Shown: positions 1,201 through 19,257 of the stretch, one piece after another
How positions within the stretch are numbered: the stretch's first letter is position 1
Layout: each line of letters opens with the position of its first letter
Program-made: the position numbers and the translations under genes
IMG/VR virus record: IMGVR_UViG_3300028299_000364
Span: 1-26,048 of that record
Direction: 5' to 3' (one strand)
Length of the DNA stretch: 26,048 nt
Origin: a virus
Notes under the pieces: generated by a model
Seen by the model: the letters and a program-made list of their open reading frames with translations, nothing else
Told to the model about the DNA's origin: nothing
Database searches by the model: none

Positions 1201-4011
1201 TTAAATATACACCTTTTTTATTTCATTTACAACATTTTTTACAGAAGGATGACACTCAAACATTGACTTGTTTTCTAAACAATTAGAAATAACAGGCGTT
1301 CCTTGAATAGTACCATGTTCAGCTAAACCATATTTCATACAAGAACCACAAAAAAGATTACATGTACCTGGAACATAAGAATACTTATATTTTTGATTTC
1401 CATGTCTATATGGCGCTCTAAATTTTGGATCTATGGAACTTCCCAATTGTATTATATATGTATCTGTTGTTCCTGCCAAATGTAAAATACCAGAATCCAT
1501 AGTTACTACTACACTAGCTTTATTTAAAATATGCCAAGTTTCTGATATTGATAATTTATTACTATAATCCATTCCATCATAAATATTTAAAGCAAAAACA
1601 GGCTTGGCAACCATTGAATTCGAAGAAGCAAGAAATTCAGCTGTATCTTTTCCCACAACTACTACAGATATATTATTTGCATAAAGTTGATCTACAAGTT
1701 TTTGCCAATTTTCTTTAGACCAGGTCCTGCTTTCCCATGTTTCCGCAGGATGAACTACTACATATTTATTTGGGAGAGATATATTAGATTCTTTATCTGG
1801 AATATATATGCATGTTCTGTCTTCTGGTAATAAGTCAAAGCCAAGAAAAGCCGCATGATATTGTCGTATATCAATTAGATTATGTTGTAAAACAACACCT
1901 GGAAAAAATGGTTTATCAATATTAATAAATGAAGTATGTACTAATTTTGGTGAATATTTATTTAATTTTACATTTAATGTAGTGTGATCATATCCATGTA
2001 AATTAAAAAGTTTACTTACATCTGGATTATTTTTAAATAATTCCGGAACATAGGTAAAAACATCAAGTGGTTTTTCATATATACTTGCTAATTTACGTAA
2101 AGTAGCTGTTGAACTTAGTGTGTCCCCTAAAGAAGGACAACCTATTACAAAAACAGGATTATTTAATATAACAATTTTTTCTATCTGAAAAGGTTCCCAA
2201 GCAAAAATATTTGATTCATATTTTCCTTTTATAACTTGTACTCTTTGATATGCTTTCTTTAAAGAGGCAACAAAACTACTAAAGTCACTATCTGAATGAA
2301 CGGTGTGGTGAAACTCCAAAGCAATCTTTTTAATTTTAGGCGCTAAGATATATATATCTTGTAAAATATCAAGTTCAGACCCCTCTGTATCAATCTTTAA
2401 AAAATCAACATGTACTATTGCGTTTTCTATTAAAAAATCCTTCAAAGAAAGTACATTTACCTGTTCAGTCCTTCCCGTGTGTGTGGGATGCCCATCTCTT
2501 GGTTTTAGAATTGTATGACCACCGCTCACACTATCTATATACAAGTCTGTAGTCATAGATTTGTTTGAAAGACCAATGTTAAAATGTTTTGCATCTTTTA
2601 CATTATTTTGTAGAGCTTTAAAATTTTCTTTGTTTGGTTCTATGCTATATACAATAGATGCTCCAGCTTTAAAAGCAAATAAACTAAAAAGTCCAATATT
2701 TGCCCCTACATCTATGACAGTGTCTCCTTTTTGTACTTTACAATCTTCAAAAGAATACTCTTCTTTTGTCCAAACTTCATTCCACAGAAGGTTAAACTCA
2801 TTTTTATCTTGTATACTGTGTTGTAAATCTAATTTTGGTAAATTTTTAAAAGCATCAATGACCTGTTGTGCTTCTATAGTCTTAGAACACTCAAATTGTC
2901 TTGAAGTGTCCTTGTGTCTTGGACACCAATTCCAATCGCCCTTATCAAACATAATATCTTTGTCATTAAAACACCCTTTGCATTTTTCAGAATTATCAAT
3001 ACGGATGCAATTATTTTGAAATTCGTACCAAGATTCTGTAAAGCCGGAAATCATAATTGTTTTTTGTCCCATAGCCCATGCTAACCATGACAATCCGGAA
3101 CTAATACCTATAAGACACTCTGCATGTTTTATATAAGGAAGAAGTTGTTCAAGCGTCAAATCTTTTACATTTATAGTATCTAGTAATGCTTTATTACCCA
3201 TATAGCCATTAGGTTCACGTGACAAATTTACTACTTTATAACCAGAAGTATTTAGATAGTCAATAACCTCCTGCCAACCGGTTGAGTTATTCCAGTATTT
3301 TGCTTGTGCTGTCGAATGGGGGGCTATACAAACATATTTTTCTTCCATTGGCTTGCCAGCAGTAATTTCGTTTATTTGAGCCTGTTTTGATTCTAGAGGA
3401 AGTCCTAAAATAACGGCAGCTAAATGTTGTAGTGGAATTGTTCTGGAATCAACAGGTGCTTTATTTAAATCATAATATACACCAATATTATAATTAGCTG
3501 TAAGATTTTCAATAGTAGTTCCAGGTGAAACAAACTCAATTTGCGGATAACATTTATTAAAAAGATTGTTATGAAATGTACTAACAATAAGAAGACATTG
3601 ATGCTTCTTTTGAAAATCTTCTAGATATGGCATCCACGCAATTGTATCTCCCAGGGCACTACTTCCAAACTGAATAAAAACTTTTTTATTTTTTAAATTC
3701 AGATCACAACTAACCACTAAGGCATTATTATATAACACATCTATACGCCAATTTATAAAATATTCCCTTGAAGCTTTCGACCAGTGACCGGGTTTTATTA
3801 TACTCTCATATATTACTGCCTGCGTATCTTTATTAATAAACCTGGTTGTATATTCTTTTTGTGAAGGACCTACAATTGAAACTTTTGGTCCACCTATAAA
3901 TGAAAATTCAAAACGATCTTCTGTAGAAACTTGAGGTAATGGCAACGCCATTACTGCAGATATATCAGTTGTTTTATATGCCTCTATGAGTTCTTTTTGC
4001 ATTTGTGACAT
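1201..4011 (-). CDS. Three-domain glycosylation enzyme: O-heptosyltransferase-like GT, FkbM methyltransferase, GT9
   Basis: A 936-residue fusion. Residues about 1-395 resemble the Aah/TibC autotransporter O-heptosyltransferases: they have the nucleotide-sugar entry FGSSALGDTIAW (115-126) and a four-cysteine iron-finger pattern at C344, C347, C363 and C375. Residues about 428-605 are an FkbM-type SAM methyltransferase, with VIDVGANIG (432-440) and the signature FLKIDTEGSELD (537-548). Residues about 617-936 are a second GT9-like domain with IGCPSLGDT, HPAETW and MDSGILHLAGTTD, plus another cysteine cluster near the C-terminus. It likely transfers heptose-like sugars to Ser/Thr of a protein and methylates a sugar. 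The start overlaps the preceding gene's stop as TAATG. All 17 Trp codons are TGG, unlike most of the window, which hints at recent acquisition. Confidence 0.85.
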   Translation of the reverse strand: MSQMQKELIEAYKTTDISAVMALPLPQVSTEDRFEFSFIGGPKVSIVGPSQKEYTTRFINKDTQAVIYESIIKPGHWSKASREYFINWRIDVLYNNALVVSCDLNLKNKKVFIQFGSSALGDTIAWMPYLEDFQKKHQCLLIVSTFHNNLFNKCYPQIEFVSPGTTIENLTANYNIGVYYDLNKAPVDSRTIPLQHLAAVILGLPLESKQAQINEITAGKPMEEKYVCIAPHSTAQAKYWNNSTGWQEVIDYLNTSGYKVVNLSREPNGYMGNKALLDTINVKDLTLEQLLPYIKHAECLIGISSGLSWLAWAMGQKTIMISGFTESWYEFQNNCIRIDNSEKCKGCFNDKDIMFDKGDWNWCPRHKDTSRQFECSKTIEAQQVIDAFKNLPKLDLQHSIQDKNEFNLLWNEVWTKEEYSFEDCKVQKGDTVIDVGANIGLFSLFAFKAGASIVYSIEPNKENFKALQNNVKDAKHFNIGLSNKSMTTDLYIDSVSGGHTILKPRDGHPTHTGRTEQVNVLSLKDFLIENAIVHVDFLKIDTEGSELDILQDIYILAPKIKKIALEFHHTVHSDSDFSSFVASLKKAYQRVQVIKGKYESNIFAWEPFQIEKIVILNNPVFVIGCPSLGDTLSSTATLRKLASIYEKPLDVFTYVPELFKNNPDVSKLFNLHGYDHTTLNVKLNKYSPKLVHTSFINIDKPFFPGVVLQHNLIDIRQYHAAFLGFDLLPEDRTCIYIPDKESNISLPNKYVVVHPAETWESRTWSKENWQKLVDQLYANNISVVVVGKDTAEFLASSNSMVAKPVFALNIYDGMDYSNKLSISETWHILNKASVVVTMDSGILHLAGTTDTYIIQLGSSIDPKFRAPYRHGNQKYKYSYVPGTCNLFCGSCMKYGLAEHGTIQGTPVISNCLENKSMFECHPSVKNVVNEIKKVYI

Positions 4012-4967
4012 TATGAGTTCATGTTGATTAATTCTTTTACCTGCGTGGCATGCTGCGCAGGATCTTTATGAAAAAACTTTATTAACTGATTGTTTGAATA
4101 AGCTCCGTTGTATATTGGTAAGTCGTTCATTAATACGGGCAATTCCCAGGAAAGCGCTTCCCGTACAACGAGTGGGTTAGTTTCTAGTACAGAAGGGAAT
4201 ATCAATGCGTCGCAGGCCTGATAAAACAATTCCATATCGGCTCTTTCTCCCCATATAACGCAGTTATCAGGCTTTACAGCCATCAAGGGTCCCCAATAAT
4301 TTTCGAAATTTACAGCTTGATTACCAACAAAATTAAAATAAATGCCATTAGGAAGTTGTTGTGCTATTTTGAAAACTTGTCCTTGATTTTTATCTTTAGT
4401 GAATAAGCCTACCGTAATAACTTGTGCAGAATCGACCTTCATTCCTAGTTTTTTTCTGGCTTCTTCTTTAGTATATTGTCGTTCTTGTTTATCAATAGGG
4501 TACTCTACAACGTCATAAGGAATTTTTAAATCCCTGTATCTACTAGCCTGTCCTTCGCTGACAAAAATGAATTTATCCGGGAAAAATTGTTTTGTGCTTA
4601 CATTATAAGTTGAGTTATGGCAAGTCTCGAGAAGCTTGTATTGACGATCTGTGCGATACAGCCACTCAAAGGGTTTACGATCAAAGTCATACCAAAAACA
4701 TTCTGGATGTTCTTCGAGGTGAATAATATTGGGATTAATATCTTTTACGATTTGTATAAGTTCATTTTTATCTGTTCCTAACGTGAATAACCTATCGCCA
4801 AGAAGTTCGGATATTTTATCACGTTGAACAGTATACTTGTCGCTTATCTTAGCAAATTCTATAACATAAACAACAAAAACGTTTTTTAAAGCTTCTATCT
4901 TCTTTAGAAGATATTGTGGTTGGCCACCTGTTGATAAATGTGGCGCAACAAATAAAAGTTTTTGCAT
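4011..4967 (-). CDS. GT4-type glycosyltransferase
   Basis: 318 residues with the layout of a GT-B retaining glycosyltransferase: an N-terminal nucleotide-fold opening (LLFVAPHLSTGGQPQYL), a linker, and a C-terminal sugar-nucleotide domain with VGLFTKDKNQ and a late acidic motif region near VVREALSWELPVL. The family transfers sugars from NDP-sugars, usually in the cytoplasm. No signal peptide or membrane segment is seen. It is translationally coupled to the three-domain glycosylation enzyme through TAATG, so the two probably act on the same glycan. All five Trp codons are TGG. The ribosome-binding site is weak. Donor and acceptor cannot be read from the sequence. Confidence 0.8.
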   Translation of the reverse strand: MQKLLFVAPHLSTGGQPQYLLKKIEALKNVFVVYVIEFAKISDKYTVQRDKISELLGDRLFTLGTDKNELIQIVKDINPNIIHLEEHPECFWYDFDRKPFEWLYRTDRQYKLLETCHNSTYNVSTKQFFPDKFIFVSEGQASRYRDLKIPYDVVEYPIDKQERQYTKEEARKKLGMKVDSAQVITVGLFTKDKNQGQVFKIAQQLPNGIYFNFVGNQAVNFENYWGPLMAVKPDNCVIWGERADMELFYQACDALIFPSVLETNPLVVREALSWELPVLMNDLPIYNGAYSNNQLIKFFHKDPAQHATQVKELINMNS

Positions 4968-7138: not shown

Positions 7139-8032
7139 CTAACCTAAAGTCATCTTAGCACAGGATTTGGTATTACCAATTCCCATACCTACACTTTCAT
7201 AAGCAGCAAACGATATAATATTCTTTTTCTTTTCAATCCAGAATTTTACATCATTTAATACCAAGAATTGGCCCATAAATTCTTGAGCTGTAAAGCCATA
7301 GATTTTATTTTGTAGTAGGCTTACTTTATTAGATACAACTAATCTACGTCCAAACAAAGTTGAATAAGAATAACCATTTACATGGGTTTCTGATCCTACT
7401 GCGTCACCAACCGTTGTTGCGTCATATAAAAATAAACGGTTATACATTGTTGTGTCCATTAAAATAATTTCAGTACGTAACTCATTGCCGTCTAATACAT
7501 CAAACAGTGTTTTAAAAGCTGTTTTTGGTATTTGACCTGAACTGTAACTAGCGGTTTGAGCGCTACTTTCAGTTGTAATTGCTGCGTCTACTTGAGCTAA
7601 GAACGATGTATCTTCGATTTTTTGAATATCAAGAACTGAGTTCTTTTCGATAACCTCTGTTAAAGGCATTTCGTAAGCTAAAAGTTCTTCTTCTGTTTTT
7701 TGAAAATCCTCTGAACTGATCATATAAAAAGGAATCTCAAAACGAGGACCTTCAATGTAGTTCCAATCGGGTTCACCACGGAAGTTTACTGTCATAGCTT
7801 TTGAATCAGGTTCAATATCAACAATCTTTACAAGACCATCATGATTAACTGAACGTGTTAAATCGGCTTTTGTTACATACTGGGGTTGAATAATTTTACG
7901 CGCAAAAGATACTTCACGTAACTTTTGACGAATAAAAGCTGATCCCTCTTGTGCTACTTTTTCTAATCCATCCGGAGAATCTAACTTCTGGATGAATAGC
8001 TCATTAACAGTACTTGCTGATAAGTTTTCCAT
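7139..8032 (-). CDS. Probable major capsid protein (HK97-like fold)
   Basis: 297 residues. The start MENLSAS has AGGAGA nine bases upstream; longer in-frame versions run into the upstream gene. The sequence follows capsid proteins of large myophage-like viruses: a helical N-terminal region, REVSFARKIIQPQYV, a beta-rich middle with YIEGPRFEIPFYMISSE, the central helix region around LDIQKIEDTSFLAQVDAAI, and a C-terminal domain with LFGRRLVVSNKV and SFAAYESVGMGI. Its position after protease, scaffold-like and decoration genes, and just before a strong terminator, supports the call. No TGA codons; both Trp are TGG, which fits a highly expressed gene. I infer the HK97 fold from these patterns and not from a structure comparison. 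Confidence 0.8.
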   Translation of the reverse strand: MENLSASTVNELFIQKLDSPDGLEKVAQEGSAFIRQKLREVSFARKIIQPQYVTKADLTRSVNHDGLVKIVDIEPDSKAMTVNFRGEPDWNYIEGPRFEIPFYMISSEDFQKTEEELLAYEMPLTEVIEKNSVLDIQKIEDTSFLAQVDAAITTESSAQTASYSSGQIPKTAFKTLFDVLDGNELRTEIILMDTTMYNRLFLYDATTVGDAVGSETHVNGYSYSTLFGRRLVVSNKVSLLQNKIYGFTAQEFMGQFLVLNDVKFWIEKKKNIISFAAYESVGMGIGNTKSCAKMTLG

Positions 8033-8046
8033 AATTATTTCTCCTA

Positions 8047-8484
8047 TTATATCGTAATGTATTCGATTACGGTATGGCTGGCATTTAGATGAGTAATAGA
8101 GTGACTTGCTTTTGTACAATATGCAGCGATTATTCCAGCGCCTGCAGTTGTACTTAACATACCATCAGTGCCAACATATAATGCGGCTCCAACGGCTGGG
8201 GTACCTGTAAATTGATCTGTCAATGCACGGAATTTTCCGTAAACTACAGTTAATTTACCAGTACCTGTTGTAGATCTTGTGTCTGGTGTAAAGCCTGCTG
8301 TACCGTCACGATTGGATTCGTTCCACACACAACCTAAAGCAAAAGCGCCGGCAGAACCAACGTAATTTAAAGTGGTTGTATTTGGACCAACCCAAGTTCC
8401 GGTAAATCCTGACGCCAACAAGCCAGCTGCGGCTGTTACGTCAAAACGATGCACCATATTCAAGTTTGTCAACATTCTAAGCAT
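8047..8484 (-). CDS. Head decoration or stabilisation protein
   Basis: 145 residues, rich in Gly, Ala, Thr and short beta segments (for example TGKLTVVYGKFRALTD and VGAALYVGTDGM), starting just upstream of the capsid gene. A good GGAGG site precedes the ATG. Size, composition and adjacency to the capsid gene are typical of phage decoration proteins that bind the outer capsid surface as trimers. There is no membrane segment, and both Trp are TGG. The assignment rests on context and composition. Confidence 0.6.
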   Translation of the reverse strand: MLRMLTNLNMVHRFDVTAAAGLLASGFTGTWVGPNTTTLNYVGSAGAFALGCVWNESNRDGTAGFTPDTRSTTGTGKLTVVYGKFRALTDQFTGTPAVGAALYVGTDGMLSTTAGAGIIAAYCTKASHSITHLNASHTVIEYITI

Positions 8485-8514
8485 TATTACTTTCCTCCAG
8501 TAATATTATTAGTC

Positions 8515-8868
8515 TTAATCCTCCAGAAGCCCTTGTATAAAGCGCTCTTCTGGAGATAGTGATATAGATGAGATATTCTTAGCAACTTTACCCAAAAAAA
8601 ATCCCTGTCTGGTTTCTGTCATGGTAGCTGCTTTTTCAATTACATCTAATTGTTCTGAGGGCTGCTTACAAAATTCTGTAATAGTATCCTCAAATTTTTC
8701 AAGTGTTACATGACCAATTTTTAAAAAACGAGTTGCCAAACGTTGAGCTCTTTTATAATGCTCAAGCTGCATACCTTGTTCTTGCTGTTTTAATTCACTT
8801 TCTTGCAATTCTTGCGCCAAAGCTCTAATAGTTGAAGCAGCTCGTTTTTCTAAACTTTGTTCACTCAT
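8515..8868 (-). CDS. Small helical scaffold-like protein
   Basis: 117 residues, helical with coiled-coil character (EKRAASTIRALAQELQESEL) and no Trp. The C-terminus LSPEERFIQGLLED resembles the end of the 182-residue acidic protein two genes upstream (LQPDQRIVLGLYNRFFG). It lies between protease and capsid genes, where scaffolding and core proteins are normally encoded. The ribosome-binding site is weak, so coupling to the preceding gene is likely. The family is not recognised. Confidence 0.6.
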   Translation of the reverse strand: MSEQSLEKRAASTIRALAQELQESELKQQEQGMQLEHYKRAQRLATRFLKIGHVTLEKFEDTITEFCKQPSEQLDVIEKAATMTETRQGFFLGKVAKNISSISLSPEERFIQGLLED

Positions 8869-8887
8869 TGTTGTCTAAAAATTACTT

Positions 8888-9220
8888 TTATTCTTTTATT
8901 TCTTCTGTTGCTGCTAATTCTGCTTTAAAAGCCTTAGCCATAATAATACCTAATTGATGCTGTTCTGCAATTTTTTCTTGTTTTTCTTCAAGTGCAGCAT
9001 CTTTTTCTATTAAGTATGTAGCTAGTTCTGTTACATCATCTTCAGAATAATCATTGCCATATTCTTCAGCTAGCATATTATCTGCCGTAGTAGCGTATTT
9101 ATTAAGAACCTCTAAACGATCTTGAGTTAGTTGTTCTTCTGCATTTTTTTCAATAGTTTCAGAAACTTGTTCTTGATCAGCTTGAAGCATTGCATCATAT
9201 ATTTCTAATAAATTAGACAT
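8888..9220 (-). CDS. Small acidic scaffold-like protein
   Basis: 110 residues, strongly acidic and helical, with no Trp and no membrane segment. A segment GIIMAKAFKAELAA matches YMARGFMAELNE in the preceding 182-residue protein, so the two share a module. A GGAGG site inside the end of the preceding gene precedes the ATG (9218-9220). Position and composition suggest a scaffold or prohead core component removed by the maturation protease; this is inference. Confidence 0.6.
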   Translation of the reverse strand: MSNLLEIYDAMLQADQEQVSETIEKNAEEQLTQDRLEVLNKYATTADNMLAEEYGNDYSEDDVTELATYLIEKDAALEEKQEKIAEQHQLGIIMAKAFKAELAATEEIKE

Positions 9221-9223
9221 AAT

Positions 9224-9772
9224 TTAATTTTCCTCCGTTCCAAAAAAACGATTATATAGACCTAAAACAATCCGCTGATCCGGTTGTAAAGATGCCAACT
9301 TTTCTGCTTCAGATTCTTCTACTGCAGGTTCTTCTGCATCAGCAGCTACCTTTTCTACTGTTTTAGTAGTTATTTCATTTAATTCTGCCATAAATCCCCG
9401 AGCCATATAACGACCTTGTTTTTCTAAAAGAGCAATTGTTTCTTTATCTTCTTCAGAAAGTTCGGCTTCTTTTTCTGCTTCAGGTTCTTCTGCTGCAGAT
9501 TCTTCTGCTACAGGTTCTTCTGCTACAGGTTCTTCTGCTACAGGTTCTTCTGCTACAGGTTCTTCTGCTACAGGTTCTTCTGCTACAGGTTCTTCTGCTA
9601 CAGGTTCTTCTGCGTCAGCTACTTTAATTTCTTCTTTTACTTCAGCCGTTTCAACAACTTCTGTTTTAAGTTCGTCTACTTTGCTGTCGTCTAGAAGATT
9701 TTCCGCAAAAACTTGTTCCGCTTTTTTTACTGTCTCAAGTTCCTGTAGAATTTTATCGATGTTTACACCCAT
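9224..9772 (-). CDS. Acidic repeat protein, probable scaffold or prohead core protein
   Basis: 182 residues, very acidic. The N-terminal ~45 residues are helical. Residues about 52-96 hold tandem AEEPV pentapeptides encoded by a perfect 15-bp repeat. The C-terminal half has YMARGFMAELNE and ends with LQPDQRIVLGLYNRFFG, both echoed in the two following genes. TGGAGG lies upstream of the ATG. It follows the protease gene directly, the usual place for a scaffold. The flexible Pro/Glu repeat may act as a spacer or protease-sensitive linker. Confidence 0.65.
   Translation of the reverse strand: MGVNIDKILQELETVKKAEQVFAENLLDDSKVDELKTEVVETAEVKEEIKVADAEEPVAEEPVAEEPVAEEPVAEEPVAEEPVAEEPVAEESAAEEPEAEKEAELSEEDKETIALLEKQGRYMARGFMAELNEITTKTVEKVAADAEEPAVEESEAEKLASLQPDQRIVLGLYNRFFGTEEN
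9486..9620. repeat. 15-bp tandem repeat encoding AEEPV
   Basis: Seven identical copies of a 15-bp unit (plus strand TCTTCTGCTACAGGT) at 9501-9605, with degenerate copies on both sides. Identity at silent positions indicates very recent expansion, in contrast to the degenerate fibre repeat. The unit is a multiple of three, so copy-number changes keep the frame. Confidence 0.95.
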
Positions 9773-9788
9773 TTGTGTAATACCTCCA

Positions 9789-12700
9789 TTAGTTTATGAT
9801 TAAATCCTTATAAATAACATTTAATGTGTCTTCGTCTAATCGATTCAGAACACTAGCAAATTTTAGTCAATTTGAATTTAATGTTTTAAATTTATTTATT
9901 TGCTTTGATATTGTATTTAGCCCAGTTACACCCAAAATAGACGCTCCTAAAGCTACAAGCGCTGGATGCTTTCTCAAAAAATTTTCACTTGATGAGATAG
10001 GAATTCCTCGCTGTGCTTTTTGTTCAGGAAAAGAAGCAGCATAATATGATCCTGGAACAGTTATAAGCATTCCACCAATAACGTGTCCAGCATTTTCAAT
10101 CATACCTGCTTTCTTATCAAACGAATCCAAATCATGCACATGTTTTTGAGCCAATATTGAAACACCGGCCGCAGAACCAAGCATAGCTGTAAATATCCAA
10201 GGATGCCTTGCTAAAAACTTTTTAAATTCACTAGTACTAACATTATTAAATGTTTTTATATATCCGTAATATAAGCTACCCAACACTCCTAGAGGAACTA
10301 TTGGACTCTTAACTGAATTAAACACAGGATCTTCTGACTGGCCAAAAAAAACTTTACCTATAAGACTTCGTTCTTTTTTATTTCTATCAGGAAATACCTG
10401 ATTTAATTCTTCCGGAGATTGTGCTTGCTCTATAAAGTCCGCCTGGCTTATTTTATATAAACCACGCGCAATAATGTTAGGCTTTGTTAAAGCCATTCCT
10501 GGCAAGTCTTCAATTAACAACCCGGCAATTTTTTCATTAAAACGATCAAGAGATATATCTTCTGGAACAATGGCTTTTAGATTTGGATTTACATCAAAAC
10601 AAATATTAGCTTTTTCAAGTTCTTCTGCTCCGAGTGCTTTTCCCATACTATATAAAGCTAGTTTTTGAAAGTCTTCTCGTACAGGTACAATTCGTAATCC
10701 AATAAATGTTGAAAGTATTTCACTTAGCGGATACTCCGAAAGTTTTTCAATAGTTTCTTTGGATAGACGTTTTTGGGATGATCGTATTAAATTTTTTGGA
10801 TCATCTGCAATAACTTCTATTTTACCATCTATTTTCTTTTTTATCTCAGCTTGAGATTCAAGTTCTGCTGTTTTAGCAATACTTTGTGCTCAAGTTAAGG
10901 GCTCATCGATCATTTCATTTGCTGATTTATCAAAAGACGAAGAAGTTTTATTAGAAAGTTTCTTTATAAAACTAGCCGTCTTTTCGGCAGGGATTGTTAC
11001 TACACTAATGTCAAAAAACTTTGGTTGATTGTTTATAGCATAAACCTTTTTACCGTTTGGCATTACCTTATTCATGTTGTTTTTTAAATGTTCGCAATAA
11101 TTCGCGACCTTTGTTGCTTCGTTTCCACATATGCTGCAAGTATCTTTTGGAACTCTGCAATTATGAACTGCATACTGCTCTACTACATAAGAATTGTCTT
11201 TTTCTACTTCAAAGTTATAAACGGGCCCTTCATAATTTTCTTCTGCAATACTTTCGATACCTAAAAGATAAAAATCTTCATATTCAAAAGGACCCCCTTT
11301 ACCGCCCGATCCCATAGAATCGATATTTTGAATCTTATTTGCATATTTATATAATTCGTTGTTTGCTGTTTTTCTAAATCTTAAAATCCATTCTATGGTT
11401 TCCTCGTTTGAAAATCCTTTTCCGGCTCCGTGAATATTTCTTCCAATAGTGACGTTTAGCCCAATTGAAAAACCTAACCATTGAATTTGTTCTAAAAGTT
11501 GTTTATTGCACGAACTTATATAAATTTGATTTTTATGAAAAAAGCCATCTCCTGAAATATATGCACCTAAAAAAGTAAGTTTAGCTTCTTTACTTCAATT
11601 AAAAATATCTTTATGCAAAAACTTTTTATGGCTATACTTTCCACAATATTTTAACACTTCTTTTTTTAAATCTTTTGAAAAAATCCGAATTACTAAAGCT
11701 TCTTTTGAATGAGACCGTGTTCCAAATTTTGCTTCCGGTAATTGTAATATCTTTAAAACGCTGTCTATCTCTTGTACTATTTGATCTTTTTCATTAACAC
11801 TAAATTCTACCCCACTATCATTAATGTGTGTATACCCTTCAGCCAAATACCAACCTAAAAGTTTAGCCTTTGCGACAGATACATCAATTCCATCAACATT
11901 CTTTGGCTTTGGTATAAATAAATGATCGTGCACCGAAAGATCTTCTGAATTTTTTCAAACAGCGTCGTCAACTGACAATTGTTTTCGTCTTATTACCCGA
12001 TTTTTTTCATCTTTGTCAAAAAATTTATCAGGTTCAATAATCAATCATGGGTGTTCTTTAGTAGCTGTAATTGTTTCTCTATACTTACCAACAGGGTTTA
12101 TTGTGTATATCTTTCCAGAATAATCCCTTGGATGTAATTCAGTTACTTTGTGTATTTCTCCCATGTGTGTTAATACTTCATCCCCAACTTGAATATTTTC
12201 GATCGGTTTCTTGGAAAAATCACTAAGTATAATATTAGTACCAGCTTGGACACATCCCATACTCACCGCGGGCAGTTCGCCTTTATCCAATCTTTCTATA
12301 ACAGGTTTAGCTTTGCTCTTGTCTAATTCCAAAACTAATTCAACTCTTTTCATTTTATCATTATAATGTGCAAATTTTACTTGTCCTAATGACAATTTCG
12401 GATCTTTATTTACATGATGTGTGTAAACATGGCCGAGAGCTTCAAAAGTTTTATGATAATCTTTTAATGCTTTTTCAGGAAAATAATCGCCATTTCGGTT
12501 TGAATTATGTCCAATAAAATCAACAACATACGAGTTATCATCTTCAACTTCTAGATTATAAATGGATGTTTTTTCTATTTCTTCAAACATAACTGATTTT
12601 ACTTTCGCTAAAATATATCCGGTTGGTAAAATAAAAAAACCACCATTTTTACTAACTCGTTCTGTTAGATTTACACTTTTTAATCGTAATGTTTTTTCGA

Positions 12701-13868
12701 GCAACTCGGGCGTGTAATAACTACCAATACTTCCTTCATAAATATTATGATCTTCAGTTCCAAAACAATTATTACTGAATTTATTACAGCCGAGAGATGT
12801 TGTAGAAACAACTCCAATTTTAGCTAATAAACGTTGTAACGAAAAAGCTAAGTTTCTTGATACAGTGCTAAATTTAATTGTGTTTTCATACCTACTGTTG
12901 TCTGCGTCCGTTGTTAGATGCCCGTCGCCATCTAAATAAGCCGCAATAAAAGTTTTAATCCATTCATCGGTTTGAGCAAAAATTTCAGGATGTATAAATT
13001 TTCTTTTTGAGTGGTGCCCTAAATATTTTTCTAAAATATAAGCCATCTCTTTTCAACCAACACTTACCCTTAAAGCTTTATCTGATGTTTGAGACTCAGA
13101 GATAAACAACGAATGCTCAGCTTTTTGAACAATTTCATTTAATTTATCGATCATCTTCTGATCTGATTTACCAAATACAAAGACAATGCCGGCCCAATCA
13201 TCTTTTTGATTTATCCTGTCATATCTCTTTGTTAAACAGCCTTCTGCTAAATAATAACCAAAAAGATGTGCATAATCAAGCGGCAACTGTTCGGGCAACT
13301 TTTCAAACTTTGGATCAATGGGAGAATAAACATAATCTCCGGGACGTATTTCTTTTGCATTAATTCATTCGGGCTTTAGTTGCGATAATTCATTTAAAAA
13401 TTCTTCTCGAGATATTTTTTGTTTGTAATACCTTTTTTGAATAGGCACAAAATTTTCTTTTTTTAAGAGTAAAAAAGGATGATTTTCTGTAGATGTCTGC
13501 TCTTCAGCAAAATTTTGAATTTTAATTTTAGTTTGTAGCCCGTCATAATCTTTAACAAAACATGAAATAACTTTTTTAAAAGAATTTGTATGTGTTCAAA
13601 CTTGATCATCTTTTTTTATTTCTTCTATAGGGCTATAACCCATATTAGTTAAGATAGGTTGACCCTTAAAAAAACATCCAAAAAACTCTCCAGCCGCTAA
13701 TGCATTTACAAGTGCATACTCTTTTTCAGGTTTGCCATCTAAACCTTCTATATATTCTTGAATTTCCGGTGCATATTCAGCACGTTTTTCCATAGACGTT
13801 CCGGAAAGCACAGAAAAAACTTCAGTGTTGTTATCACCGTATATATAATTTAGAGTTTTTTCGATCAT
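9789..13868 (-). CDS. Prohead maturation protease with two inteins and a hydrophobic C-terminal domain
   Basis: A 1359-residue precursor that would give about 603 residues after removal of two inteins (residues 65-455 and 539-903). The joined extein has NRNGDYFPEKAL, YTHHVNKDP (candidate catalytic His 484/485) and VSMG (candidate catalytic Ser 536), then a CSICGN...YC.HL zinc-like segment and FFDISVVTIPAEKTA. This pattern is that of prohead serine proteases of large phages, which cleave scaffold and capsid during maturation. The C-terminal ~290 residues have four hydrophobic Gly/Ala-rich segments (about 1188-1205, 1223-1240, 1262-1277, 1302-1317), unusual for a protease. Eight TGA codons must be read as Trp; with them the frame is open throughout. 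The start overlaps the preceding stop as TAATG. The protease call is confident; the tail's role is unknown. Confidence 0.85.
11160..12254 (-). mobile_element. Intein 2 of the protease, LAGLIDADG type
   Basis: 365 residues, inserted directly after the active-site VSMG. It starts with Cys in the splicing-block context CVQAGTNIILSD, has TATKEHPW as the block B His region, and ends VVEQYAVHN before a +1 Cys. Two LAGLIDADG-like helices are present, LLGWYLAEG (670-678) and FLGAYISGDG (766-775). The acidic residues needed for a homing endonuclease are therefore at least partly kept (E and D), so the element may still be mobile. Three Trp are TGA and three TGG, so it has adapted to the recoded genome. 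Confidence 0.9.
12504..13676 (-). mobile_element. Intein 1 of the protease, LAGLIDADG type
   Basis: 391 residues, inserted before the conserved SNRNGDYFP. It begins CFFKGQPILTNMGYSPIEEI (block A), has the block B sequence STENHPFLLL, and ends DNSYVVDFIGHN followed by +1 Ser. The LAGLIDADG-like helices are LFGYYLAEG (202-210) and FIAAYLDGDG (307-316). Terminal His-Asn and first Cys suggest it is splicing-competent. Three TGA and two TGG Trp codons. It is not a close copy of intein 2: the C-terminal block is alike (DNSYVV) but the endonuclease parts differ. Confidence 0.9.
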
Positions 13869-15444: not shown

Positions 15445-18216
15445 TTAGGCAGAACCATATGCTAACTGGGCTGACAAAATTGCATATAAGGTCGCATGAA
15501 AAAAATCATCAGGACCTACATTTATATACTTGCTTTTTCCTAATTCCTCATTATATTCTGTTTGAATATTTAAAATATCCTCTAAGAATGTTTGAGAGTC
15601 TTCTCATTTTGGAAATACTACCTTTCCACTTTTTATTAAACTAAATACGTCATTCATTGTTTGGTTTCTACTAAGAGTATACGCAGGCATTTGCTTGTTT
15701 CATCTTAATTTTTCTTTTTGAGCAGCATTGTGTTGAAATGCAATTACTACTTTTTTTCCTATTCGTTTCTGTATTTCGCTATTAGGTGCTTCACCCATAC
15801 CATAGTCAGCTGCCAAAATCTCACAATTTCATATATTCATTAATCTTGGAACTTCATCATGAATAAAACCATAATCTGCTTCTTTTCCTATAAATCTTTT
15901 AGCATATACCACATGATATTTATTATCACCACGTAACTGAACAACACTAATAATAGTATATGACTCAGTTGAATTTACAGGACCATAATCAATTCCCATA
16001 ATAGACTGATAAGACAAATCAAGTTCTGAAGGAGTTTCCTGTATATTTTTATTTTGGCTGCAAGCGGCCATAACTTCTGTTCTAGTAATTGGCGCCACGC
16101 CATGATCATACTCAAGAGCAAGAACTTCATTAAAAAATGCAGCCTTACTATAAGTTTTCATTTTACCTATAACATCTTTTTCTCAACTAACCCATGGAGC
16201 TTTTGCAAAATGTAATAAACAAACTCTATAACCTTCTAAAGTAGGTTTATCTTTTATATTTGAGTATGTTGAAATCCATTCACCTTTTATAATATTAGTA
16301 TCTAATTCCTTTCCGCAATTAGCATTATTACAAATTAAAAAATGTGGGCCAATATTTGACTCATCTAAAAGATTTCAATGATTGCAATGCGGACATTTTA
16401 ATAGATATTCGTTTTGTGTAGATGCATACCAAAGATCTGCTAAAGTTCCTTTTGTTCGTTTTGGAGTTCCTGAATATAATGTACGTTTATACAATGATCG
16501 TGACATTGTTTCATGAATAACTGGAATAACGCTTGCTTTTAAATCTTGGATTTCATCCAAAAGATTAAAATCCGCCGACATGCCTCGTAAATGATCAGCT
16601 GATAACAACGCATATCTTAAATACATGCGACTATAATTAAGAAGTTGTTTCATGAATACATTTTGTACCATTGTGCTATTTAAATAATGTTCTTTAATCA
16701 AAGGAGAAGTTTCAAGTACAGGTGCTACACGATCCCTAGAAAACACTTTTGCTTGATCCACCGTAGGTGCCACATATAAAGTTCGAAAGTGTGGAATGAG
16801 CGCACTATTTGAAACCATTATATTCGCCAAGGTTGTACTTTTTGAAGTATTCTTGGTCAAAATACCATCAATTTGAAATGTGTGAATGCCCTCAATTTCT
16901 AAAGCCGTAGTAGCTTTTTTTCCCAAAAGCACTATTGAAGTGACTTTATCAAAATGAAAATCCGCATCATAAAGTTTTTGAAGCTGTGTAAACGTACAAT
17001 CAGTTTTTAAATATCTTTTTAGTTTTTCATAAGAAACATTATTATTAGGACTATAGAATCTTTTATCTTTTTTTGGCCTATCTTTTTTTAATTGTTCATA
17101 TACAAATTTTTTATCAATAACTAATCGGTTATGCGTTTTATGTAAATTTTGTATTAACTGCGGCGGTGCTTTTTTTGTCAAAATTTGATTATAAAAACTT
17201 TTTATTGCATCCTGTCCTTCTAAAGTTAATTTATAAACTTTTTTGTTTGTATCTTTATAAACTTTTGGTATAGATTCTGATATTATTGAATGTATGCCTA
17301 ACTTTAAAAGAAGTATTTGTATGCCCTTTATTAGCTTTTCAGATATGAGGCCTATACCAACATAATGATCACCTGAAAATTTAGTCGATCAATATCCATC
17401 AATGTCTCACCAAATTCTTAAATAATCTTTTAACTGTTTTTCAGAAAGATTATATACTAGATCAGGATGAAATTTTGTTTGTGAGTTAGACGGATATAGT
17501 CCTAAACTTTTAAATCATTCTTTTAGAGGAGACGATTTACCAATACCTATTCCATTTATTCTATATTGACCGGGATACATATCTTGTGGCAAGGCATGTA
17601 ATGAAATGTCTGGATGAAAATCTTTTAAAGCTTTTCTAAATTCTTGGACTATCGCAGCATCACAATTAGTAAAAGTAAATGAGCGGGTTGTCATTTCACC
17701 TTCAGCGAGCATATATGCTAAAACTTTATACTGATGGTCTGGAACAGTTGCTTCTTGTCGTAGTGCACACCTATTATTACGTGAAAGTGCTATAAAATCA
17801 TTAATTTTTAGATCTTTTGCATTTTTAAAGCCAAACGCAGTTCAAATGGGGTGATTTCCAGTTACTCTTAAGGAGCGCCCTGTTCTGGTTTTTATATGAA
17901 AAACGTCTTCTTGTCCGTTATCCCACTTATTTTTTACAACAGAAATAACGTTTTTAAATGTGTCTTGATTAAAGCCAATTATTTCTTCGCCTGGCTTTAT
18001 ATCACTTGCTAAAACTGCCTGACCATTAGCTAAATTTAAAATTTGTATATTATCAACACATTGACGACTAAACTTTAAAACAATATCACTGGCAGGATCA
18101 TTATATATTGCACGCATATGCGGATAAGCATCTAATGACAGCGGATGCCCATCTATATGTAAAAAACTCTCCGCAAAATCACTTCTACGAAGTTCTAATA
18201 TTTTTTTAGAACCCAT
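15445..18216 (-). CDS. Terminase large subunit with intein
   Basis: A 923-residue precursor; about 519 residues after intein removal, the usual size. It is the ATP-driven motor and nuclease that packages DNA through the portal. The intein interrupts the Walker A region: SRQ before it and TSKSTTLAN after it. Walker B is NLLDEIQD (acidic 554). A zinc-ribbon-like CPHCNHW...CNNANCG follows, as in GpA-type terminases. The RNase H-like nuclease has aspartates in MGIDYG (D743), AADYGMGE (D804) and DDFFHATLYA (D903/904). Nine TGA codons, five of them in the extein, are read as Trp; WVSWEKDV and FPKWED fall at family Trp positions. It starts at TAATG overlapping the bS21 gene and stops with TAA. Confidence 0.95.
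16849..18060 (-). mobile_element. Terminase intein, LAGLIDADG type
   Basis: 404 residues (53-456). It starts with Cys (CVDNIQILNLANGQAVLASD), has the block B-type VTGNHPI, and ends TFQIDGILTKN before +1 Thr. The penultimate residue is Lys in place of the usual His, which may slow splicing. Endonuclease helices: VLAYMLAEG (165-173) and YLRIWWDIDG (265-274). Insertion in the Walker A loop is a known hot spot for terminase inteins and would block ATP binding until splicing. Four TGA and two TGG Trp codons. Confidence 0.9.
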
Positions 18217-18485
18217 TAATAATCAAAAACCTGTTTCGTATATTTTGCAAGATGTTCAGCTTTTTTACGAGCTGCTCTTAATTTAGCACTTTTTTTAACA
18301 AAAAAAGTATGATCATAAAAAGTTTCCATTATTTGCGCCGTATCCATACGTTTATGTAAACGTCTTAATGCCTCATCAACTGCTGATACATCATTATAAT
18401 GTACGTATACCATTAATCCAGAATCTTGTGGTCGGTCGTCTTTTTTATCTGTTTTTTGCTTAAAGGATGAAATATTCATCGACAT
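18216..18485 (-). CDS. rpsU-like: Phage-encoded ribosomal protein bS21 homologue
   Basis: 89 residues from the first ATG. Residues 25-80 align with bacterial bS21: a start like MVYVHYND, the core VDEALRRLHKRMD matching the family's DVALRRFKR, and a basic tail with KKSAKLRAARKKAEHLAK. bS21 binds the 30S subunit near the anti-Shine-Dalgarno end of 16S rRNA and affects initiation; viral copies are known from other large phages. The N-terminal 24 residues are extra, and a start at 18413 would give the standard length, so the start is uncertain. Its 5' end overlaps the nucleotidyltransferase gene by 26 bases, and its stop overlaps the terminase start (TAATG). No Trp. Confidence 0.8.
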   Translation of the reverse strand: MSMNISSFKQKTDKKDDRPQDSGLMVYVHYNDVSAVDEALRRLHKRMDTAQIMETFYDHTFFVKKSAKLRAARKKAEHLAKYTKQVFDY

Positions 18486-19257
18486 TTAATGGTTGAAGTT
18501 TTTTAAAGAGTTCCCCGTAAGGACCATGCTCTATATATTTATATACGATATTATGATAATTATTTCTGGGCACTCCCCAGCCAACACCATAAACCATTTT
18601 TCTGTTATTTTCAATATAATCAACAAAGCGAACCAAGTCACGAAAATCTCGAACTAAATTATTCTTTGTTTGTTGTATATATCAACGCATTTCTCAGCTA
18701 TTTGATATAACACAATAAAGTTTCTTTAATTTTTTATAATCAGTTTTTAATTTAATAACTTTTCTTTCAAAATTTCGAGCTTCACGTTGTGCATATAAAA
18801 TTTCATCATCAAATTCTTCATTAGGATCGCGAACAGTATCTCGTGAAGGCGGTTCATTAATTCATTTATCTGATAAAATTTCATAGACCCCAAACATAGC
18901 ATCTTGTCAAGTAGTTGCCGGAGAATATGGTTGAACAAAGAAACTAACAGGGTGTCGTCCTCCTAAACCTAAAAAACCATTTATAACACCAGTAACTTTT
19001 TGTTTATCCATTGTTTCATCAAATGGCTCAATATGCACATTAATATCTATATCAGAAGTATCTGTATATTTATACCCAGTTGTAGAACCTATAAGGTATG
19101 CAGCTTTTACAATTTCTTTTGGTAAAATTTTATAAAGTTCGGAAAGAATTTGTTCCTTTAATTGAGGAATAAGTTTTTTATTTGTATCTCACACATCCAC
19201 TGCAAGTTGATTTTGGGGTTTATCCAAGAGACTTGCAATTTTAGAAAAATTAAGCAT
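18460..19257 (-). CDS. Nucleotidyltransferase-fold protein
   Basis: 265 residues, unbroken only if five TGA codons are Trp. Residues about 40-65 hold the polymerase-beta-like motif LIGSTTGYKYTDTSDIDINV, that is, GS followed by D-x-D at the metal site. The third acidic strand is not clear (HPVSFFVQP). The C-terminal half is helical with many charged residues, and one Trp is TGG. Such proteins transfer a nucleotide to RNA, protein or a small molecule, and they occur near terminase genes in large phages. The substrate cannot be told. It is coupled by TAATG to the upstream 80-residue protein. Confidence 0.75.

Follow-up and report, generated by a model that had tools for sequence, protein, structure and literature searches.

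A TibC-family glycosyltransferase fusion beside a Ser/Thr-rich collagen-like fibre: a candidate system for glycosylation of a phage's own fibre

Background

The glycosyltransferases TibC and AAH act on autotransporters, and the TibC-family enzymes of known function modify proteins; the residue modified by TibC is Ser, not Thr (PMC4358343). For TibC, the catalytic base is Asp110; the phosphate is bound by Thr226 and Lys230 and the heptose by Trp305, while Arg286 contacts adenine N1 and forms the basis of ADP-sugar use (PMC4358343). Sugars are also known on collagen-like proteins: the Mimivirus enzyme L230 glycosylates the virus's own collagen-like protein (PMC9614988), and the Gly-X-Y shaft of the Bacillus spore protein BclA carries sugars that were proposed to aid hydration (PMC8968730). 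Here we analyse a viral fragment of 26,048 bases from IMG/VR (record IMGVR_UViG_3300028299_000364, positions 1 to 26,048; henceforth the window), which carries all its genes on the minus strand. It contains a TibC-family enzyme, fused to FkbM and GT9 domains, close to the gene for a Ser/Thr-rich collagen-like fibre, and we argue that this cassette probably O-glycosylates that fibre.

Results

The cassette is transcribed in the order GT4, TibC-FkbM-GT9 fusion, DUF6165 protein, fibre (Table 1). An earlier note on this DNA had placed the GT4 enzyme and the fusion, with its iron-finger cysteines, at 1201-4967, and both are indeed found there on the minus strand (PF00534, TIGR04414, PF05050 and PF01075). 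The DUF6165 protein and the fibre of GTS and GSS triplets, which it had leading on from these enzymes, do follow directly, although they lie outside that interval and the standard code breaks both genes. The fibre shaft is nearly free of Pro. Counting tracts of at least 6, it holds 52 Gly-X-Y triplets (26 GTS, 11 GSS, 11 GTD, 3 GTN and 1 GTA); Ser is present in 71% of the triplets, and Ser and Thr occupy 86% of the X and Y positions, against a median of 21% in a compositional control of 118 viral Gly-X-Y loci, picked solely by the repeated pattern GGNNNNNNN and thus regardless of glycosylation genes. The N-terminal part (about 92 aa) shows a weak likeness to cyanophage tail fibre and tail collar proteins (E about 1e-3); as the contig end cuts the fibre, its role in the virion rests on homology.

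By profile scan, TibC relatives are encoded on at least 566 viral contigs. The best-scoring 80 of these (not a random draw), together with loci L001-L005, gave 41 representatives at 80% identity; they come mostly from aquatic phages, relatives among them are not independent draws, and many records are fragments. Gly-X-Y tracts with 10 or more triplets occur in 26 of the 41, many of the others being short contigs, and the longest tract spans 920 triplets (L029, 94% Ser/Thr). When only well-flanked representatives are considered (at least 8 kb on each side of the TibC gene, n=22, with repeat proteins counted within 10 kb), 16 have a Ser/Thr-rich Gly-X-Y tract, while three more (L024, L048 and L049) encode Thr-Pro mucin-like proteins of 600-1100 aa and no Gly-X-Y fibre. 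Either kind of protein is thus found at 19/22 TibC loci against 2/27 control loci centred on the terminase and taken from kin of the TibC phage Microcystis phage Mel-JY01 (Fisher p 2e-8). Mel-JY01 (PP395634) has been isolated and encodes an 805-aa GSSGTSG protein. The earlier note had named relatives with the cassette apart from any Gly-X-Y fibre as a refuting case. Such loci exist but form a minority of the 22: the three mucin-like ones, and L005, L042 and L069, which have neither kind of protein (see Discussion). Composition follows the same pattern: the median Ser/Thr fraction at X and Y is 0.81 in TibC-linked tracts against 0.21 in the compositional control (p 9e-13), and Ser takes a median of 74% of Y positions against 2%, in keeping with the reported preference of TibC for Ser.

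The arrangement of the genes differs largely between loci. L222 carries separate genes throughout, in the order fibre, small protein, GT4, GT4, FkbM, TibC and a tail sheath-like protein; in other loci TibC follows FkbM, GT2, GT4 or a DXD-type transferase within one fused protein, and the fusion of L002 is permuted (GT9-GT9-FkbM-TibC), with two GT9 domains that are 41-42% identical to that of the window. The fibre lies upstream or downstream of TibC, on either strand. Since the functions are joined differently and the position and strand of the fibre vary, the pairing is not one inherited block or frozen operon. In the sister phage L006 the fusion orthologue (54% identical) has the same domain order as in the window, and the gene order also matches (capsid protein, GT4, fusion, DUF6165, fibre). 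Among the sampled records, that of L005 (LR756504, 636 kb) belongs to a huge phage with a stand-alone TibC gene and gmhA about 26 kb off.

Searching from the fibre back to the enzyme gives a similar picture. In 50 whole records from the pattern-picked loci, TIGR04414 was found in 5/10 with a Ser/Thr fraction of at least 0.74 and in 0/40 below it (p 1e-4). A G-(S/T)-S codon pattern served to select a second sample; of its records of at least 30 kb, 17/38 have TibC (true size 36, given the duplicates L382/L417 and L365/L374), against 1/12 Ser/Thr-poor records. That one record, L180, first seemed to combine TibC with only Ser/Thr-poor collagen, but it holds an additional 78-triplet GSSG/GTSG tract. 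Pooled, the two samples yield TibC in 22/48 Ser/Thr-rich records and 1/52 others (p 7e-8). FkbM alone does not mark such fibres (2/10 against 3/40 in the first sample). With the GT4 of the window as bait, 20 viral loci were obtained, of which 16 also have TibC nearby; 12 of these 16 contain Gly-X-Y tracts, 10 of them Ser/Thr-rich.

The TibC domain of the window is a true member of its family (352.9 bits for TIGR04414, at a curated cut-off of 200). Its best solved relative by sequence search is TibC itself (4rap, 6e-66), which is also the best match in the PDB for the TibC part of an AlphaFold2 model of the fusion (template modelling score 0.86 on target length, E 2e-34, 34% identity); the predicted fold comprises an N-terminal beta-barrel and a GT-B catalytic core, as in TibC. 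Residues 30-390 of the model mostly have a predicted local distance difference test score of 80-96 (mean 68; below 50 for 607-735 and 880-919). As the model is good only for the TibC part, it was not used for GT9 or the packing of the domains, and the three-domain structure prediction proposed in the earlier note is informative to that extent. The window enzyme retains the equivalents of Asp110, Thr226, Lys230 and Trp305, with Asp110, Lys230 and Trp305 invariant in 41/41 phage representatives. Four putative iron-finger cysteines have the TibC spacing in the window and are likewise kept in 41/41. Position 300 of TibC, which sets stereoselectivity, is Ser in the window enzyme, as in AAH. The machinery for protein glycosylation appears to be kept; ADP as the nucleotide of the donor cannot be assumed.

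In a tree of 79 TibC domains, the phage enzymes and a gammaproteobacterial clade are separated from the enzymes of acetic acid bacteria, Trinickia and Selenomonads (support 99/91). All five TibC genes of the gammaproteobacterial clade (L289, L291, L292, L293 and L294) stand alone and have as neighbour a small lipoprotein-like protein that bears GTSG/GSSG tracts; in L289 (lipoprotein region 7718-8952) the pair is located among ordinary cellular genes. TIGR04414 is rare in gammaproteobacterial genomes (2/369), and both cases are beside a neighbour of this lipoprotein type. No tract of the GTSG/GSSG type was found at any acetic or Trinickia locus. It is possible that the bacterial pair makes up a glycosylated collagen-like lipoprotein. 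The contigs L285, L286, L288 and L295 bear a cellular label, yet phage rows or phage-like genes surround them; they may represent prophages, or phage DNA that was binned wrongly.

TGA is a Trp codon in this phage. With TGA so read (genetic code table 4) the minus-strand open reading frames (ORFs) of at least 100 aa sum to 8812 aa, against 6540 in the standard code, and the terminase and a prohead-protease-like ORF become whole; the DUF6165 and fibre genes, each interrupted by an in-frame TGA in the standard code, are intact as well. In the sister record (L006/G051, 210 kb) the ORF total rises from 43,711 to 58,494 aa. Some 25 tRNA genes are also present in that record, besides a tmRNA and a putative tRNA-like gene with anticodon TCA (L328:5786-5883, 98 bases). 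Trp is encoded by 48 TGA and 67 TGG codons in the genes of the window; the GT4 and fusion genes have 0 TGA and 22 TGG, against 48 and 45 in the remaining genes (p 1e-6). Late acquisition of these two genes from a host with the standard code might be argued from this usage, but we set the idea aside as unproven because the fusion of the sister phage requires TGA as Trp.

Table 1. Positions of the cassette, its domains and other features; positions refer to the window unless a locus is named
Feature	Positions	Strand	Evidence and remarks
Fibre protein, 266 aa up to contig end	2..799	-	PF01391 6.8e-25, PHROGs tail fibre 2.4e-20; in-frame TGA 614-616 = Trp
Ser/Thr-rich Gly-X-Y shaft (GTS, GSS, GTD, GTN), continues past contig end	2..523	-	86% Ser/Thr at X/Y
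DUF6165 protein, 126 aa	808..1188	-	PF19662 1.4e-11; in-frame TGA 985-987 = Trp
TibC/Aah-FkbM-GT9 fusion, 936 aa	1201..4011	-	Family/profile matches; orthologue in sister L006
GT9 (heptosyltransferase-like) domain, about residues 620-929, own Cys cluster	1225..2154	-	PF01075 7.3e-27, best stretch 744-870
FkbM methyltransferase domain, about residues 431-571	2299..2721	-	PF05050 1.3e-18 (434-571), TIGR01444 3e-23
TibC/Aah O-glycosyltransferase domain, residues 30-390	2842..3924	-	TIGR04414 352.9 bits; model matches PDB 4rap
Putative iron-finger cysteines C344, C347, C363, C375	2887..2982	-	Aligned to TibC C339/C342/C358/C370
GT4-type glycosyltransferase, 318 aa	4011..4967	-	PF00534 5.8e-11
Prohead-protease-like protein with two inteins	9789-13868	-	Eight in-frame TGA; LAGLIDADG domains in inteins
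Terminase large subunit with intein	15445-18216	-	Nine in-frame TGA; LAGLIDADG domain in intein
Thr-Pro mucin-like repeat proteins	L024:2514-5828, L048:2075-5404, L049:4807-6651		Near phage TibC genes

Some neighbouring genes deserve mention. For DUF6165 no paper was found in the literature searched; in cyanophage S-SRM01 a relative is located between glycosyltransferase and nucleotide-sugar epimerase genes. Directly downstream of the prohead-protease-like gene lies an acidic protein with tandem AEEPV repeats (9224-9772), and the product of 18460-19257 weakly matches polymerase-beta/MntA-type nucleotidyltransferases.

Discussion

We estimate at roughly three in four the probability that the cassette O-glycosylates the phage's own Gly-X-Y fibre. 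The reason is that TibC relatives almost always adjoin Ser/Thr-rich repeat proteins of the fibre or stalk type, in many unrelated phages. The earlier note had a TibC-family enzyme decorating the fibre next to it, and the comparative data favour that view: the pairing recurs in distant phages, holds when approached from the fibre and tracks Ser/Thr content, so that the fibre is most likely what the enzyme acts on. The data establish family membership, a conserved active site and the specific, repeated pairing; we infer the substrate, the order of steps and a role for the glycan. Glycosylation would begin with the TibC domain, which would add the first sugar to Ser, and possibly Thr, in the Gly-X-Y repeats of a fibre still under synthesis in the host cell. 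Chain extension by GT4 and by the GT9 domain of the fusion would probably follow, as would O-methylation by FkbM. The glycans would then line a shaft with almost no Pro, and probably serve to shield it and to maintain its stiffness and solubility. Sugars would make such a shaft more stable and more soluble, as was proposed for glycosylated bacterial collagens (PMC8968730).

A number of observations weigh against this explanation. The equivalent of Arg286 is Leu in the window enzyme and its sister, and it is Arg in only 11/41 phage enzymes (lost in 30/41) against 23/23 cellular enzymes compared. Use of ADP-heptose is therefore not to be assumed. As to the donor, heptose genes are not enriched: gmhA (TIGR00441) was detected in 1/26 long TibC records (W03) against 1/22 others, and rfaE domain II gave matches below the cut-off in 5/26 against 2/22. 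Any ADP-heptose would accordingly have to be supplied by the host, and it seems to be only one candidate among donor sugars; the methylated heptose-like sugar of the earlier note is not upheld. Receptor mimicry, which the note had also suggested, is not supported, and the data speak neither for nor against it or the alternative of protection. Furthermore, L005, L042 and L069 have TibC and no Ser/Thr-rich repeat protein within 10 kb (in L005 a collagen-like protein is absent from the whole 636-kb record), while L207/L213 pair TibC with a long Ser/Thr-poor collagen of the GPQGYQG type, which departs from the Ser/Thr rule. TibC modified Ser and not Thr, so the mucin-like proteins, with their many Thr residues, are perhaps not substrates. 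Finally, about half of the collagen records that are Ser/Thr-rich and 30 kb or longer gave no TibC, some of them because they are fragments; such fibres either need no TibC or are served by another enzyme.

Genes for surface polysaccharides often encode GT4, GT9 and FkbM domains. The cassette might instead remodel lipopolysaccharide or a surface protein of the infected host, for instance to exclude competitor phages; it would then lie near the fibre because both belong to a variable host-recognition region. The glycosyltransferases of such phage regions were interpreted in this way (PMC7029224). We nonetheless consider this unlikely: the TibC-family members with an established function have proteins as acceptors (PMC4358343), and a host-surface role predicts no tie to fibre composition, yet TibC goes with tracts rich in Ser/Thr and is missing from collagen records poor in them. 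Somewhat less likely still is a substrate in the virion other than mainly the adjacent Gly-X-Y fibre, such as the capsid or a different tail or repeat protein. For mycobacteriophages, PMC12619734 cites glycosylation of the capsid and the tail tube, and some TibC phages have Thr-Pro mucin-like proteins instead of the fibre, or, at three well-flanked loci, neither; against this, TibC is most often paired with Gly-X-Y tracts rich in Ser/Thr, and this pairing is seen from both search directions and extends to bacteria.

It might also be argued that aquatic phages hold so many glycosyltransferases and collagen-like fibres that the two meet by chance or shared ancestry, the more so as the loci are mostly from such phages and relatives are not independent. 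This appears very improbable, as it is contradicted by the controls (thinning at 80% identity, 2/27 terminase loci, and Ser/Thr-poor collagen phages without TibC) and by the differing gene orders and fusions. Glycosylation of the phage's own fibre remains our preferred explanation.

A wider generalisation is put forward tentatively, at slightly less than even odds: Ser/Thr-rich, nearly Pro-free Gly-X-Y shafts (perhaps Thr-Pro mucin-like stalks too) could be a widespread class of O-glycosylated phage fibres, with TibC-family enzymes as their dedicated modifiers, often fused with GT4, GT2, GT9 or FkbM as one-protein glycan assembly lines and shifted to another sugar nucleotide in most phages, and with the same pair in bacteria as a glycosylated collagen-like lipoprotein system. 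The link between TibC and Ser/Thr content would then predict which phages have sugar-coated fibres and account for the possible stabilisation of a Pro-poor shaft, and the substrate range of TibC would widen from autotransporters to collagen-like repeats, bacteria included.

Known systems close to the cassette include TibC and AAH (bacterial autotransporter heptosyltransferases, BAHT, TIGR04414; 4rap), with which it shares the N-terminal beta-barrel, GT-B core, iron finger with its four Cys, catalytic Asp, Lys and Trp, and a gene that adjoins a repeat-rich surface substrate (in the phage, a candidate substrate). It differs in that their acceptor is an autotransporter passenger (beta-helix) and the phage neighbour a Gly-X-Y fibre (PF01391 6.8e-25), and in that the phage-borne enzyme is fused to FkbM and GT9 and has Leu for Arg286. 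The repeats of BclA are of the Gly-Pro-Thr type, on spores, and other enzymes than a TibC cassette are involved. No paper tying TibC to phages or collagen-like fibres was found in a search that covered few subscription papers and no preprints; glycosylation of a phage's own fibre would be new for the TibC family. The Mimivirus case differs by Lys hydroxylation with glucose on hydroxylysine, an unrelated enzyme and linkage, and a eukaryotic virus (PMC9614988). Mycobacteriophage glycosyltransferases do decorate virion proteins (Freeman et al. 2023, as cited in PMC12619734), though in that summary the modified parts are capsid and tail-tube C-termini, not a Gly-X-Y shaft, and the TibC family is not named. 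Host-recognition regions of marine myophages also have several glycosyltransferases near tail fibres, yet these were interpreted as modifiers of the host surface, with TibC not mentioned (PMC7029224); for the glycosyltransferases that many large phages encode close to their fibres, and whose usual interpretation is an action on the host surface, the link described here offers another role, that of building a glycosylated virion.

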